64,000 bases of DNA from Acidobacteriota bacterium (GTDB taxonomy: Bacteria; Acidobacteriota; Terriglobia; Terriglobales; Acidobacteriaceae), in NCBI GenBank assembly GCA_019351975.1, contig JABBOG010000007.1, forward strand, positions 1 to 64,000, given 5' to 3'. The stretch's first letter is position 1. Each line of letters starts with the position of its first letter. This document shows positions 11,248 through 15,829 of the stretch, in pieces. The notes under the pieces were generated by a model. That model saw only the letters and a program-made list of their open reading frames with translations, ran no database searches and was not told the DNA's origin. A program made the position numbers and the translations under genes.

Positions 11248-12105
11248 ATGCCGTTGACGGTGAATGATTTGAGGCGGGACACGCTGTTTTCGCTGGAGGG
11301 CAAGACGGCGGTGCTGACGGGTGCTTCGGGGTTTCTGGGGCGGACGTTTGCGCTGGCGCTGCTGGCCAATGGGGCGCGCGTGGTGGCGCTGGGTCGCAGC
11401 GAGCGGCTGAAGAGCGAGGCGGAGCGCTGGGCGAATGCGTTTGGCGCGAGCAAGATCGCGGTGCGGCAGATCGACATGTACGACCGGCAGGCGCTGGAGG
11501 ATGTGTGCGACGCGATTGCGGCGGAGGAGCGATCGATCGATGTGCTGATCAACAACGCGCATGAGCTGGGGGCGGCGACGGGGTTCAATGTGCCGGAGGG
11601 GTCGCTGGAAAACTCGACGTTTGACCAGTGGCAGCGGAACCTGCAGGGTGGTGTGTACTGGGCGGTGCAGACGACGCAGCGGCTGGGCGTGAAGATGAAG
11701 GAGCAGCGGCGCGGGTCGATCATCAATATTGCGACGATGTATGCGACGGTGGCGCCGCGGCCGCAGCTGTATGAGGGGACGACGAGCTTGAACCCGCCGG
11801 GGTACTCGGCATCGAAGGCGGCGCTGGCGGCGTTTACGCGATATACGGCGAGCTTCTGGGGGCGCGAGGGGGTGCGGGCGAACTGCATTTCGCCGGGGCC
11901 GTTTTCGAACACGGAGGATGTGGCGGGGCAGAACTCGGTGACGGAGGATTCGCCGTTTGTGCAGCGGCTGAAGGGGTATACGGTGCTGAACAGAATTGGG
12001 CGGCCGGTGGAGCTGTGCGGTGCGCTGGTGTTTCTGGCGTCGGATGCGAGCACGTATGTGACGGGGCAGAATTTGCTGGTGGATGGCGGATGGACAGCGG
12101 TTTAG
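11248..12105 (+). CDS. Short-chain dehydrogenase/reductase
   Basis: The 285-residue classical SDR has the cofactor motif TGASGFLG near residue 28, INNAH near residue 95 and the catalytic YSASKAAL (Tyr and Lys) near residue 190. It ends with FLASDASTYVTGQNLLVDGG, standard for the family. The lack of an acid after strand 2 and the Arg in LGRSERLK hint at NADP preference, an inference. It is tightly linked to the TIM-barrel isomerase and resembles the PtmA-type oxidoreductases found in flagellin or LPS sugar pathways. A 70-base intergenic repeat follows at 12187. Confidence 0.85.
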   Translation: MPLTVNDLRRDTLFSLEGKTAVLTGASGFLGRTFALALLANGARVVALGRSERLKSEAERWANAFGASKIAVRQIDMYDRQALEDVCDAIAAEERSIDVLINNAHELGAATGFNVPEGSLENSTFDQWQRNLQGGVYWAVQTTQRLGVKMKEQRRGSIINIATMYATVAPRPQLYEGTTSLNPPGYSASKAALAAFTRYTASFWGREGVRANCISPGPFSNTEDVAGQNSVTEDSPFVQRLKGYTVLNRIGRPVELCGALVFLASDASTYVTGQNLLVDGGWTAV

Positions 12106-12186
12106 AGGCAGGGAGCAGGGATCAAGGGTAGGGATTGAGGGTTAGGGTAAATTCGTTGGGGGCGTTGTGGTTTGGTTGCAGGAGGC

Positions 12187-12256
12187 GCTGCAGGTCTCTC
12201 CACTGCGCCAAAGGATGACGCCGTTTGGCTCTGGTCGAGATGACAGTATTTTGCTG
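12187..12256 (+). repeat. 70-bp intergenic repeat, copy 1
   Basis: This segment and positions 14759-14828 are near-identical over 70 bases in the same orientation. The shared cores are GGTCTCTCCACTGCGCC, CCGTTTGGCT and GGTCGAGATGAC. Both lie between genes. The pair brackets an SDR gene and the pseudokinase gene. It is probably a dispersed genomic repeat with no coding role. Confidence 0.8.
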
Positions 12257-12313
12257 ATTTGCGAAAACGCTGTCGGCAATCTTGCTGTAGGGACAGGGAT
12301 TAGGAGGGCGCGG

Positions 12314-13093
12314 ATGGAGATGGGGCTGAAGGACCGGATTGCGTTTGTAGCGGGGAGCTCGCGGGGGATTGGGCGGGCGATTGCGGCGGCGCTGCTGGCG
12401 GAGGGTGCGCGGGTGGTGATTACGGGGCGCGATGCGGCTTCGCTGGAGACGGCGAGGGCGGAGATGGCGGCTGACGCGGGGCAGGATCGGGTGCTGGCGA
12501 TTGCGGGGGATTTCGCGAATACGGAGACGATTGTGGCGGCGTTTGAGCAGACGGTGCGGGAGTTTGGGCGGATCGACCACATGGTGGCGAACCTGGGGAC
12601 GGGCAGCGGCAAGCCGGGGTGGGAACAGGCGGAGGAGGAGTGGGAGCGGCTGTTTGCGATGAACTTTTTTGCGTCGGTGCGGCTGACGCAGGCGGTGCTG
12701 CCGTACCTGCTGGGGAATGCGGAGGGTGGGAGCGTGCTGTATGTCGGGTCGATTGTGGGGGTGGAGGCGACGCCGGCACCGCTGCCGTACTCGGCTGCGA
12801 AGGCGGCGCTGATGAACTATGCGAAGAACCTGGCGCGGCAGGTGGGGGCGCAGAAGGTGCGGGTGAATACGATTGCGCCGGGGAATATTTACTTTGCAGG
12901 GGGATCGTGGGAGCGGCACCTGAATGCGCGGCGGGAGGCTGTGGAGGCGATGCTGCGGACGGAGGTTCCGGTGGGGCGGTTTGGGACGCCGGAGGAGATT
13001 GCGTCGCTGGCGGTGTGGCTGTGCTCGGAGCAGGCGGGGTTTGCGACGGGCGGGTGCTTTGTGGTGGATGGCGGGCAGACGCGGTCGGTGTGA
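12314..13093 (+). CDS. Short-chain dehydrogenase/reductase
   Basis: The ATG at 12314 has AGGAGG six bases upstream; longer frames starting at 12167 would run through the intergenic repeat and are not credible. The 259-residue product carries AGSSRGIGRAIA (cofactor), the NLGTG loop in place of the usual NNAG, a Ser in VGSIVG, and YSAAKAALMNYAKN (Tyr/Lys). It ends GGCFVVDGGQTRSV. The pattern fits 3-oxoacyl-ACP reductase-like SDRs of unknown substrate. It stands alone between the repeat copy and the pseudokinase gene. Confidence 0.85.
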   Translation: MEMGLKDRIAFVAGSSRGIGRAIAAALLAEGARVVITGRDAASLETARAEMAADAGQDRVLAIAGDFANTETIVAAFEQTVREFGRIDHMVANLGTGSGKPGWEQAEEEWERLFAMNFFASVRLTQAVLPYLLGNAEGGSVLYVGSIVGVEATPAPLPYSAAKAALMNYAKNLARQVGAQKVRVNTIAPGNIYFAGGSWERHLNARREAVEAMLRTEVPVGRFGTPEEIASLAVWLCSEQAGFATGGCFVVDGGQTRSV

Positions 13094-13316
13094 GCTAAGG
13101 CGCTGCTGGTGCGGCTGAGGACGTAGTGCGGGGCGTGATGGCAGGCGGCGATGCACAGGAAGTCAGCAAGGATACGCGCAGCATTGTTTGCGATAATGAA
13201 TGGGAGAAGAAAAGCTGCTATGTACGCACGAGCGGCGCACTCACGGAATTTCTGTATTTTGCCGATCTGGCATTTATGGCCTGACCTAACTCCACTCCCA
13301 ACGCAGGACTCGATAT

Positions 13317-14717
13317 ATGCAGCTATGGACCGACTATGAAGGCGTCACGATTGATGGCGCTTTTCCTTTGAAGAAGCTCTTGATGCCCGAGGGACGCAGT
13401 GCGTTCTTCTCTACCGCTGGATTGAAGGGCGAGCCGACGGTGGTGCGGCTGATCGAGTGCCACTTCGACGAGGAGGAGATCCTGGCGCGGTGGAGGTGCG
13501 TGGAGGCGCTGCGTCATCCGAACTTTTTGAAGTTTGAGCGGTTTGGGCAGACGGAGATTGAGGGTCGGCCGGTGGTGTATGCGGTCTTCGAGAAGGTGGA
13601 TGGGAACCTGGCGGAGGTGCTTGATCAAGGGCATTTGACGGTGGAGGATGTGGCACAGTTGGGGTTCAGCCTGGTGGCGGCGCTGGATGTGCTGCACACG
13701 CACGGGTATGTGCATGAACATGTGGAGGCGCGGAATATCTTTGCGGTGGGCGACGAGGTGAAGCTGCGGGGGGACTGCATCCGCGAGGCACCGGAAGGCG
13801 CGGAAGGACGGGCGGCCAAGCAGCGCGATGTGCGCGATCTGGCGACGGTGCTGCTGCAGGGGCTTACACAGCGGCGGTCGATGGAGGGCGTCGGGGATGG
13901 TGCGATGCCTGCGCCGATGCGGCAGATTATTCGTAATGGACTGGATGGGAGCTGGGGGCTGGAGAATATCCGGGCGGCGCTGGAGAGCCAGTATGCTGTG
14001 AAGCGGCCCGCTGTGGCTGCGGGATCGGCTGTGGCTGCGGGATCGGCTGTGGCTGTGGGACCGGGTGTGGTTTCGGCGAAGAAAGATGGGGTGGCGGGGC
14101 CGGCAGCTCCGCTGGTGGCGGCCAAGCCTGCGGTTCGAGCAGAGGAGAAGCTGCCGCTGCGGCCGATGAAGGAGGAGCGGAATGGTGGCGGCGAGCGCGT
14201 TGTGGCGCAGAAAGATGCCGAGGGCGAGGGCGTTTCGCTGCGGTCGCGGTGGGTAGGTGTGGGTGCGGTGGCGCTGCTGGTGATTCTTTGCGCCTGGATT
14301 GTGGCGGAGATTTCTGGCGGACATCGGGCTGCGAAGACAGCGGGTGTGGGAGCTTCGGTGCCTGTTGCAACACGGCCTGTTGTTGCGCAGCGAACCAAGC
14401 AGGCGGCGATTGCTACGCCGAAGGCTGCCGGGGCGGATGTGTCGCTTGGGAGCGGCGCTGCGGCGGCTGGGTCGCATGCGGGATGGCGTGTGATCGCGTA
14501 TACGTACGACCGAAGGGCGGATGCGGAGAAGAAGGTTTCGGAACTGGCGCATGCGCATCCGGAGCTGCAGCCGGCGGTGTTTACGCCTAGCGGACATGCT
14601 CCGTACCTGGTTTCGGTGGGGGGCGTGATGGATCGGGACGCGGCGCGGGCGTTGGCCCGGCGGTCGCGAGCGCTGCGGTTGCCGCGCGATATGTATATGC
14701 AGAATTACAGCCGGTAG
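13317..14717 (+). CDS. Pseudokinase - transmembrane - SPOR domain protein
   Basis: Residues ~10-225 follow the Ser/Thr protein kinase fold but the catalytic residues are lost. The beta3 Lys position is Arg (VVRLI, residue 44). The HRD-to-N loop reads HEHVEARN (133-140), so the catalytic Asp is His and the Lys is Glu while the Asn is kept. The DFG position reads GDC (152-154). A repeated AVAAGSAVAAGSAVAVGP linker starts near residue 232. A charged stretch follows, then one membrane helix (about 313-331), and a C-terminal SPOR-like domain from ~390 (GWRVIAYTYDRRADAEKKV). SPOR domains bind denuded septal peptidoglycan. The kinase-like part should be cytoplasmic and the SPOR part periplasmic. A signalling or scaffold role is inferred. 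Confidence 0.75.
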   Translation: MQLWTDYEGVTIDGAFPLKKLLMPEGRSAFFSTAGLKGEPTVVRLIECHFDEEEILARWRCVEALRHPNFLKFERFGQTEIEGRPVVYAVFEKVDGNLAEVLDQGHLTVEDVAQLGFSLVAALDVLHTHGYVHEHVEARNIFAVGDEVKLRGDCIREAPEGAEGRAAKQRDVRDLATVLLQGLTQRRSMEGVGDGAMPAPMRQIIRNGLDGSWGLENIRAALESQYAVKRPAVAAGSAVAAGSAVAVGPGVVSAKKDGVAGPAAPLVAAKPAVRAEEKLPLRPMKEERNGGGERVVAQKDAEGEGVSLRSRWVGVGAVALLVILCAWIVAEISGGHRAAKTAGVGASVPVATRPVVAQRTKQAAIATPKAAGADVSLGSGAAAAGSHAGWRVIAYTYDRRADAEKKVSELAHAHPELQPAVFTPSGHAPYLVSVGGVMDRDAARALARRSRALRLPRDMYMQNYSR

Positions 14718-14758
14718 GGGAGATCGGGCCGATGGTTATGGTGTCGGTGCAGGAAGAA

Positions 14759-14828
14759 GCTGCGGGTCTCTCCACTGCGCCAGACGATGAAGCCGTTTGG
14801 CTCCGGTCGAGATGACAACATTTGGCTG
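14759..14828 (+). repeat. 70-bp intergenic repeat, copy 2
   Basis: This is the second copy of the repeat at 12187-12256, in the same orientation, with roughly ten to fifteen differences. It lies in the 278-base gap between the pseudokinase and the next SDR gene. Nothing else recognisable is seen in that gap. Confidence 0.8.
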
Positions 14829-14995
14829 TAGGCCGTCGGCTCCTTTGTGATGAGGCGATGATGTGCTTGAGCTGCGGTGAGTGTGCGCTTGTGTGATGAG
14901 GGTGGGGTGCGTACTAGAGCGGGATGAGTGAGGGATTTGAGGTGGAGGACAGGGGCGGGAGGTGGCCTCTGCGATACTGGTGGGGAGGTATTTGG

Positions 14996-15829
14996 ATGAA
15001 TCGGGCGCAGCATTTGTTTGATTTGGCGGGGCGGGTGGCGGTGATTACGGGCGGCGCGGGGCTGCTGGGGTATCACCATGGGGCGATTCTGGCGGCGGCG
15101 GGGGCGCATGTTGTGCTGCTGGACCTGGAGGTGGCGAAGCCTGCGATGCGGGCGGAGCAGTTGCAGCAGGCGCACGGGCCGGAGTGCATGGGGCTGGCGG
15201 TGGATATCACAAGCGAGGCGTCGCTGGCGGAGGCGAAGACGGCGGTGCTGGAGCGGTTTGGACGTGTGGATATCTTGATTAACAACGCGGCGAACAATCC
15301 GAAGGTGGAGGACCAGAAGCCGGGGCAGCCGTGGTCGCGGCTGGAGAACTTTCCGCTGGAGACGTGGAATGCGGACATTGCGGTGGGGTTGACGGGGGCG
15401 TTTCTGTGCTCGCGGGTGTTTGGGACGGAGATGGCGAAGCGTGGGAGCGGCGTGATTCTGAATGTGGCGTCGGATTTGGCGGTGATAGCGCCGGACCAGC
15501 GGCTGTATCGGCAGGAGGGATTGCCGGAGGATGAACAGCCGGTGAAGCCGGTGACGTACTCGGTGGTGAAGACGGCGCTGCTGGGGCTGACGCGGTATCT
15601 TTCGACGTACTGGGTGAAGCAGGGCGTGCGGGTCAATGCGATCTCGCCCGGCGGGGTGTTCAACGGGCAACCGGAGGCGTTTACGGAGAAGCTGCATGCA
15701 CTGATACCGATGGCGCGGATGGCGCATAAGGACGAGTATCAGGGGGCGGTGCTGTTTTTGTGCTCGGATGCGAGCAGCTATATGACGGGGCAGAATCTGA
15801 TTGTGGACGGCGGACGGAGCGTGCTGTAG
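14996..15829 (+). CDS. Short-chain dehydrogenase/reductase (PtmA-like)
   Basis: The start is the ATG at 14996 behind GGGGAGG. An upstream in-frame start at 14924 adds an unconserved leader. The 277-residue product has ITGGAGLLGYHHGAILA (cofactor site), INNAANNPK, a Ser in NVASDLAV and YSVVKTALLGLTRYLSTYW (Tyr/Lys). It continues with VRVNAISPGGVFNGQ and ends with MTGQNLIVDGG. The NNAANNPK and NAISPGGVFN segments are typical of PtmA/legionaminate-type oxidoreductases of flagellin and LPS sugar pathways. Its relation to the SDR at 11248 suggests consecutive or parallel steps on one sugar. The M28 peptidase starts 44 bases after its stop. Confidence 0.83.
   Translation: MNRAQHLFDLAGRVAVITGGAGLLGYHHGAILAAAGAHVVLLDLEVAKPAMRAEQLQQAHGPECMGLAVDITSEASLAEAKTAVLERFGRVDILINNAANNPKVEDQKPGQPWSRLENFPLETWNADIAVGLTGAFLCSRVFGTEMAKRGSGVILNVASDLAVIAPDQRLYRQEGLPEDEQPVKPVTYSVVKTALLGLTRYLSTYWVKQGVRVNAISPGGVFNGQPEAFTEKLHALIPMARMAHKDEYQGAVLFLCSDASSYMTGQNLIVDGGRSVL

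Follow-up and report, generated by a model that had tools for sequence, protein, structure and literature searches.

Putative transmembrane pseudokinases of Acidobacteriaceae that carry either a SPOR fold or a TonB C-terminal domain

A gene at positions 13317 to 14717 of the window, the 64,000-nucleotide stretch of an acidobacterial contig that was analyzed here (JABBOG010000007.1, assembly GCA_019351975.1), encodes a pseudokinase, a membrane helix, and a SPOR fold in one protein. We consider it reasonably probable that this protein would be an adaptor that crosses the membrane once and lacks catalytic activity, with a head that docks a partner and a SPOR fold outside, and that proteins of this SPOR type are a derived form. 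A larger sister type, in which a TonB C-terminal domain replaces SPOR, was absent from the preliminary description of this DNA. Bacterial pseudokinases have been little studied experimentally, according to passages of PMC12599244. The two types amount to a natural experiment, with one head, two unrelated outer domains that were not found in the same genome in a sample of 150, and an ATP site lost to different degrees.

RESULTS

Architecture and predicted fold of the window protein

The open reading frame starts with ATG, its ends agree with those given in the preliminary description, and its MxLW/MxxW N-terminal start is common to most relatives. The features of the gene are as follows.

13317..14717, + strand: whole gene, 466 amino acids, pseudokinase plus membrane helix plus SPOR fold (open reading frame list, Pfam, relatives)
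13317..14003, + strand: putative cytoplasmic pseudokinase head, residues 1-229, with a shortened activation segment that lacks the APE motif (Pfam, AlphaFold2 with low confidence in N-lobe residues 1-48, Foldseek, alignment)
13446..13448, + strand: R44 at the VAIK lysine position (alignment)
13719..13721, + strand: H135 at the position of the HRD catalytic Asp (alignment)
13770..13775, + strand: G152-D153 at DFG, with Gly at the position of the metal-binding Asp (alignment)
14004..14246, + strand: Ala/Pro-rich, putatively cytoplasmic linker, residues 230-310, predicted to be disordered (pLDDT below 50 at 228-314)
14247..14321, + strand: predicted single membrane helix, residues 311-335 (AlphaFold2, hydrophobicity scan; a Lys/Arg excess on the N side points to a cytoplasmic head)
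14322..14480, + strand: putative periplasmic linker, residues 336-388 (pLDDT below 50 at 334-387)
14481..14708, + strand: predicted SPOR fold, residues 389-464 (Pfam, AlphaFold2, Foldseek, VIA)

The Pfam kinase models matched residues 52-149 below their cut-offs (PK_Tyr_Ser-Thr, 22.1 bits against 23.1; Pkinase, 21.7 bits against 31.7). In the full-length AlphaFold2 model (mean pLDDT 61.5, pTM 0.45), the kinase C-lobe, residues 101-220, was modeled well (ten-residue means of 79-95), and residues 1-48, which make up much of the N-lobe, had a pLDDT below 50. When this model was compared to the PDB with Foldseek, the best 50 rows were all protein kinases (E 2.3e-9 to 3.1e-8), and the kinase fold that had been proposed for the head is thus predicted, with a weak N-lobe model.

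At the other end of the protein, Pfam SPOR matched residues 387-449 (28.6 bits, cut-off 21), and 17 of the 33 aligned SPOR-type members matched it at E 0.01. The piece comprising residues 380-466, modeled alone, had a pLDDT of 80.1 and the order beta-alpha-beta-beta-alpha-beta. Foldseek placed this piece beside the SPOR domain of CwlC (1x60; TM 0.68/0.74, probability 1.00, E 0.028) and, at rank 23, the SPOR domain of RlpA (E 0.27, probability 0.93); no row reached E 0.001, and the best had E 0.023. VIA aligned it with the SPOR domains of CwlC (Z 9.0, rmsd 2.8, 79 residues), RlpA (Z 8.3, rmsd 3.0, 74 residues), DedD (Z 7.8), and DamX (Z 5.8), where models with no clear counterpart often have a best Z of 7-8; the top row was 6ozd (Z 9.4, rmsd 5.0), a protein exported by Burkholderia, and the SPOR domain of FtsN (Z 4.5) stood under the best unrelated rows (5.2 and 4.9). 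A PDB sequence search with the SPOR profile gave three matches, none of them significant (endonuclease V at E 0.061 and 0.072, CwlC SPOR at E 0.43). Because the Foldseek E-values were weak and VIA scores of 7-8 are common, the SPOR assignment was based on Pfam and fold jointly.

The combination named in the preliminary description, a pseudokinase, a membrane helix, and a SPOR fold in one protein, was therefore recovered by Pfam, AlphaFold2, and Foldseek in agreement, with a kinase sequence match that is below cut-off. A search for the same architecture in other acidobacteria found full-length relatives across the window's family, taken from named relatives to be Acidobacteriaceae, which argues that the architecture is not a product of chance.

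A hydrophobic stretch scoring above 1.6 was present in 32 of the 33 SPOR-type proteins (the remaining one scored 1.54) and in all 22 TonB-type proteins. Within 15 residues of the helix, the N side was richer in Lys and Arg in 25 of the 33 SPOR types and poorer in 1; the corresponding numbers for the TonB types were 13 and 4 of 22. Since the N side is the richer one, the head is likely to be in the cytoplasm and the SPOR fold in the periplasm.

Two types with one head and unrelated outer domains

Of 150 genomes from the window's family, 92 gave some match at E 1e-6 in a protein search. Profile searches, in which the 11 best candidates per genome were scored for the SPOR type and the 10 best for the TonB type, detected the SPOR type in 28 of these genomes (E 5.3e-92 or better, C-terminus included) and the second type, which has the same head, in 51. 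One copy was found per carrying genome. No genome among the 79 carriers was found to have both types, and neither was any of the 42 genera counted from the tables (12 SPOR-type, 30 TonB-type). At the threshold used, neither type was found in 71 of the 150 genomes, including 49 of the 110 near-complete ones, and the function would thus be dispensable or replaceable.

The TonB type has the head of the SPOR type, one helix, and then a TonB C-terminal domain. Its profile matched the window head at E 3.0e-41 over profile positions 5-266, and its C-terminal profile matched solved TonB domains at E 1.9e-6. The match to the full profile reached 444 or more of 449 positions in 47 of the 51 genomes; in the other four (G118, G068, G073, and G036), it reached 388, 314, 397, and 346 positions in the main frame, and the TonB domain was visible partly or not at all. 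Pfam TonB_C was matched by all 22 TonB-type proteins scanned. It was absent from the window protein and from the 33 SPOR-type members in the Pfam and profile scans, and the SPOR profile matched all 33 SPOR-type and none of the 22 TonB-type proteins.

The idea that the SPOR piece is a diverged TonB_C was ruled out by profile comparison, as each profile matched its own type alone and the two pieces were unrelated (hhalign probability 0.1%). The fold order of the TonB domain also speaks against it.

The SPOR subfamily occurred in precisely the 28 SPOR-type genomes of the 150, once in each and within the pseudokinase gene. Named carriers were Granulicella strains, including G. mallensis, and acidobacterial MAGs (12 loci). 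In a sample of 297 genomes from the phylum, the full SPOR type was found in the window's family alone (20 genomes). The sole further match at E 1e-20 in this sample was in G419, a genome from another family of the class, and its C-terminus is TonB. The TonB-type profile gave weaker matches, E 1e-31 to 1e-41, in five genomes of other families; four of the proteins were fetched, and all were active-looking kinases. The best match among these four, L098 in G328 from another family of the phylum, keeps HRD and DFG, has PPE at the APE position, and continues into a long region outside the profile; it is perhaps near an active ancestor. No account of this pseudokinase family appeared among the open-access papers listed by our literature searches, which leave out most subscription journals.

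In trees of the heads, the SPOR types formed one clade (support 100/100, base branch 1.31), and both best trees placed this clade among the TonB types; three SPOR types taken from the phylum sample, L102-L104, were included in the second tree alone. A single exchange of TonB_C for SPOR is the simplest reading and a likely one. We did not take the nested origin as settled, as it appeared in the best trees but the AU test did not reject the TonB types as one clade (p 0.316); two sister groups are possible. Because the TonB types keep more of the active site and the TonB form occurs in a second family (G419), the data suggest that the TonB form came first and that SPOR came later, with further decay of the head. 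With an AU p of 0.316, this order of events is suggested rather than established.

A tentative extension of these observations is that the proteins might constitute a non-catalytic transmembrane receptor family that pairs one constant dead-kinase head with interchangeable sensors in the periplasm, either TonB_C or an atypical SPOR without the known glycan contacts. As far as sampled, such a family would be confined to one acidobacterial family plus the one genome in another family of the class. If this were true, the pseudokinase itself would be the signaling output into which different envelope cues are plugged.

Glycan-binding residues of the SPOR fold

According to passages of PMC6895207, the conserved Q270 of RlpA (FtsN Q251, DamX Q351) holds the glycan together with R302, R309, and R311, F274 stacks on a sugar, and many of the RlpA glycan contacts are made by the main chain. 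We mapped these residues onto the family from a sequence alignment and, provided that the structural match to 6i05 starts without a gap, from the first aligned residues of that match. The equivalent of Q270, residue 393, was Val in 17 and Ile in 16 of the 33 SPOR-type proteins (I393 in the window protein). The position judged to correspond to R309, residue 431, was Leu in 28, Phe in 4, and Tyr in 1 (L431 in the window), and the one judged to correspond to R311, residue 433, was Thr in 20, Ser in 7, and Ala in 6 (S433 in the window). The equivalent of F274, Y397, was invariant.

The preliminary description had stated that the SPOR domain targets septal glycan. As stated, this was not supported, given that the conserved Gln is replaced in 33 of 33 proteins and two of the three RlpA arginines are seemingly missing; judged from these residues, the window SPOR is unlikely to bind glycan in the mode known for RlpA and FtsN. 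It is doubtful, then, that the protein is a septal glycan sensor in which SPOR would bind denuded glycan at the division site, as FtsN, DedD, DamX, and RlpA do, and the head would recruit or check a division or wall-synthesis protein. The fold being closest to the SPOR domains of CwlC and RlpA, the invariant Y397, the main-chain nature of many RlpA contacts, and the FtsN-like topology are all compatible with such a sensor, but the Gln replacement and the apparent Arg replacements count against it, as does the presence in the genome of two other SPOR proteins, both of which keep the Gln. One of these two has 239 amino acids and a hydrophobic stretch near its N-terminus (by eye), and the other is an RlpA-like protein with DPBB and SPOR domains whose gene shares a contig with the pseudokinase gene. 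Whatever its ligand, the family supplies a natural set of SPOR domains without the glycan-binding Gln.

Loss of the kinase active site

Active-site positions were set by using the genome's three canonical kinases as a reference; all three keep the VAIK Lys, the HRD Asp, and the DFG Asp. The replacements listed in the preliminary description proved correct in the alignment: the Lys is R44, the catalytic Asp is H135, and the metal-binding Asp is G152. The SPOR-type alignment (A1, 33 rows) omits L035, whose frame is broken in the contig, and L012, L013, L014, L021, L023, and L027, which come from short stretches or contigs; L041 ends at residue 435 in A1. All omitted loci are present in a 42-row alignment, to which two TonB types (L029 and L031) also belong. 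The TonB-type alignment (A2) covers 22 of the 51 TonB-type genomes, and two alignments of C-termini, A5 (25 rows) and A6 (18 rows), contain only some of the rows.

None of the 33 SPOR-type proteins had the VAIK Lys (Arg in 24, Ser in 9), the HRD Asp, the DFG Asp (Ser in 29, Gly in 2, Thr in 1, Ile in 1), or the APE Glu (a gap in 32). The glycine-loop stretch was EGR throughout, and D153, one residue past the expected DFG Asp, was invariant. By these residues, the window kinase is catalytically dead, and the same holds for the aligned SPOR-type family. The TonB types kept the VAIK Lys in 21 of 22 proteins (Arg in 1), the Asn in 20, and the APE Glu in 21; the HRD Asp was present in one of the 22 (L054) and the DFG Asp in none. 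On this comparison, the SPOR-type head is more degraded than the TonB-type head.

A head of this kind could in principle be a nucleotide-sensing switch, in which the binding of ATP or another nucleotide, with no transfer of phosphate, would alter docking or dimerization across the membrane. The Lys and Asn kept by most TonB types and the invariant Asp after the DFG Asp position in the SPOR types are in line with this idea, and so is the modeling of DYD pseudokinases, which have a beta3 Arg, with ATP bound via an Arg-Asp salt bridge (passages of PMC12599244). We regard the switch as improbable, however, given the change of the Lys to Arg or Ser, the EGR glycine loop, and the loss of the APE part in the SPOR types.

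Almost no credence can be given to a decaying kinase gene or an annotation artifact, to which the loss of all catalytic motifs and the long branch at the SPOR-type base might point, as all 28 SPOR-type genomes encode the head and SPOR in a single open frame and 21 columns are invariant among 33 proteins with 27-67% identity to the window protein. Five of the 28 genome rows count one stop; the 42 aligned sequences, which include those five genes, hold none, and a degenerate or broken gene was ruled out on these grounds.

Genomic surroundings

The gene had been described as lying among surface-polysaccharide genes. Acyltransferase and RmlD-like genes do occur at 2.2-9.2 kb of the window, farther upstream, but the immediate neighbors differ: they encode an alpha/beta hydrolase, a xylose-isomerase-like TIM barrel, three short-chain dehydrogenases, and an M28 peptidase. 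Other neighbors in the window encode an SPFH protein and, with a match below cut-off, a weakly barrel-like protein. The gaps to the adjoining genes are 223 and 206 bases. A comparison of 61 loci (39 SPOR type and 22 TonB type; open reading frames of 100 amino acids or more, some loci on short contigs) revealed no neighbor cluster in more than 10 of them, which rules out a conserved operon or polysaccharide locus. A scan of positions 12900-15100 found no promoter-like site and one terminator-like site, with both counts near the shuffled means.

The three short-chain dehydrogenases (window 11248-12105, 12167-13093, and 14924-15829) belong to one similarity cluster and flank the gene, a layout that would fit insertion of the pseudokinase gene into a row of them. 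The gene of the RlpA-like DPBB-SPOR protein described above (L092, G000:C29:66152-66298) is located just past the end of the window. Elsewhere in the genome, L095 (G000:C23:115327-116070), one of the three matches above the Pkinase cut-off, is a canonical kinase of 326 residues whose extreme C-terminus holds a hydrophobic stretch followed by almost nothing; it is a candidate partner.

An open reading frame of about 105 amino acids was located directly upstream on the same strand, with a gap of about 44-362 bases, in 10 of the 39 SPOR loci (L076:8512-8820 (-), L027:1049-1372 (+), L077:6479-6799 (+), and seven other SPOR-type loci). Two copies scanned against Pfam and one copy scanned against NCBIfam had no match. 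This frame was found in 11 of the 150 family genomes, ten of them being those loci and the eleventh (G058) placing it at a contig edge. Because it occurs in 10 of 39 SPOR loci and was not found in the window genome, it is not a general partner; its product is possibly a dedicated partner in one sub-clade. Four TonB-type genes have a divergent open reading frame of 106-123 amino acids beside them (L044:4507-4872, L087:9413-9730, L051:5680-6042, and L052:5985-6353); the only one scanned, in L051, is pyridoxamine 5'-phosphate oxidase-like.

DISCUSSION

In the adaptor reading that we prefer, the pseudokinase head in the cytoplasm would offer a surface to which a partner docks: an active kinase, an envelope-synthesis enzyme, or a second copy of the head in a dimer. 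Through the membrane helix and the flexible linkers, this surface would be coupled to the periplasm, where the SPOR-fold domain may hold or read the cell wall or another envelope component. The outer domain would have been exchanged on a retained head, with loss of the last ATP-binding lysine and the activation segment in the SPOR branch. Domain exchange in acidobacteria, Granulicella for example, offers a direct test of what a dead bacterial kinase does across the membrane.

Several known systems share parts of this layout. PASTA kinases of the PknB/Stk1 type have the same order of kinase, helix, and wall domain, and the model for them (NF033483) matched the window protein weakly (24.2 bits, cut-off 450). 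They are active kinases with PASTA repeats, whereas the window kinase is dead by its residues and its outer domain is SPOR. TonB (PF03544), a partner of ExbB/ExbD with a short cytoplasmic end, provides the C-terminal domain that replaces SPOR in the larger sister type; in the present family, the helix follows a whole pseudokinase, and the window gene has no TonB_C. FtsN, DedD, DamX, RlpA, and CwlC (PF05036) likewise have a C-terminal SPOR fold behind a flexible linker, but the head of the window protein is a pseudokinase and its SPOR lacks the glycan-binding Gln.

Conserved dead Ser/Thr kinase domains are also found in the ActPs1-3, GLW, CP1, DYD, and DLHK families (O'Boyle et al. 2025, PMC12599244). 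According to passages of that paper, several of these families have a membrane helix after the domain, and DYD shares the beta3 Arg, but their motifs and phyla are other than those of the present family; its main text contains none of the terms "Acidobacter," "SPOR," and "TonB." The beta3 Arg was found in 24 of our 33 SPOR types, but none has an Asp at the DFG Asp position, which sets them apart from DYD.

A close parallel is EssB/YukC, which has an extracytoplasmic C-terminal part. Passages of PMC12599244 describe it as a membrane-spanning protein with a cytoplasmic pseudokinase in which the three catalytic motifs and the glycine loop are degraded and the activation loop is reduced, and assign it a scaffold role. 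Degraded motifs, a reduced activation loop, and a predicted membrane helix were all found in the window protein. EssB/YukC differs in that it belongs to Firmicutes and to a type VIIb secretion locus and in that the same passages mention neither a SPOR nor a TonB domain in it; near the relatives of the window gene, no gene cluster recurs widely (61 loci). By analogy, the best-supported reading is that the present family would work like EssB/YukC, which carries no claim of membership in that system, and that the window protein is most likely a non-catalytic transmembrane adaptor of that kind.
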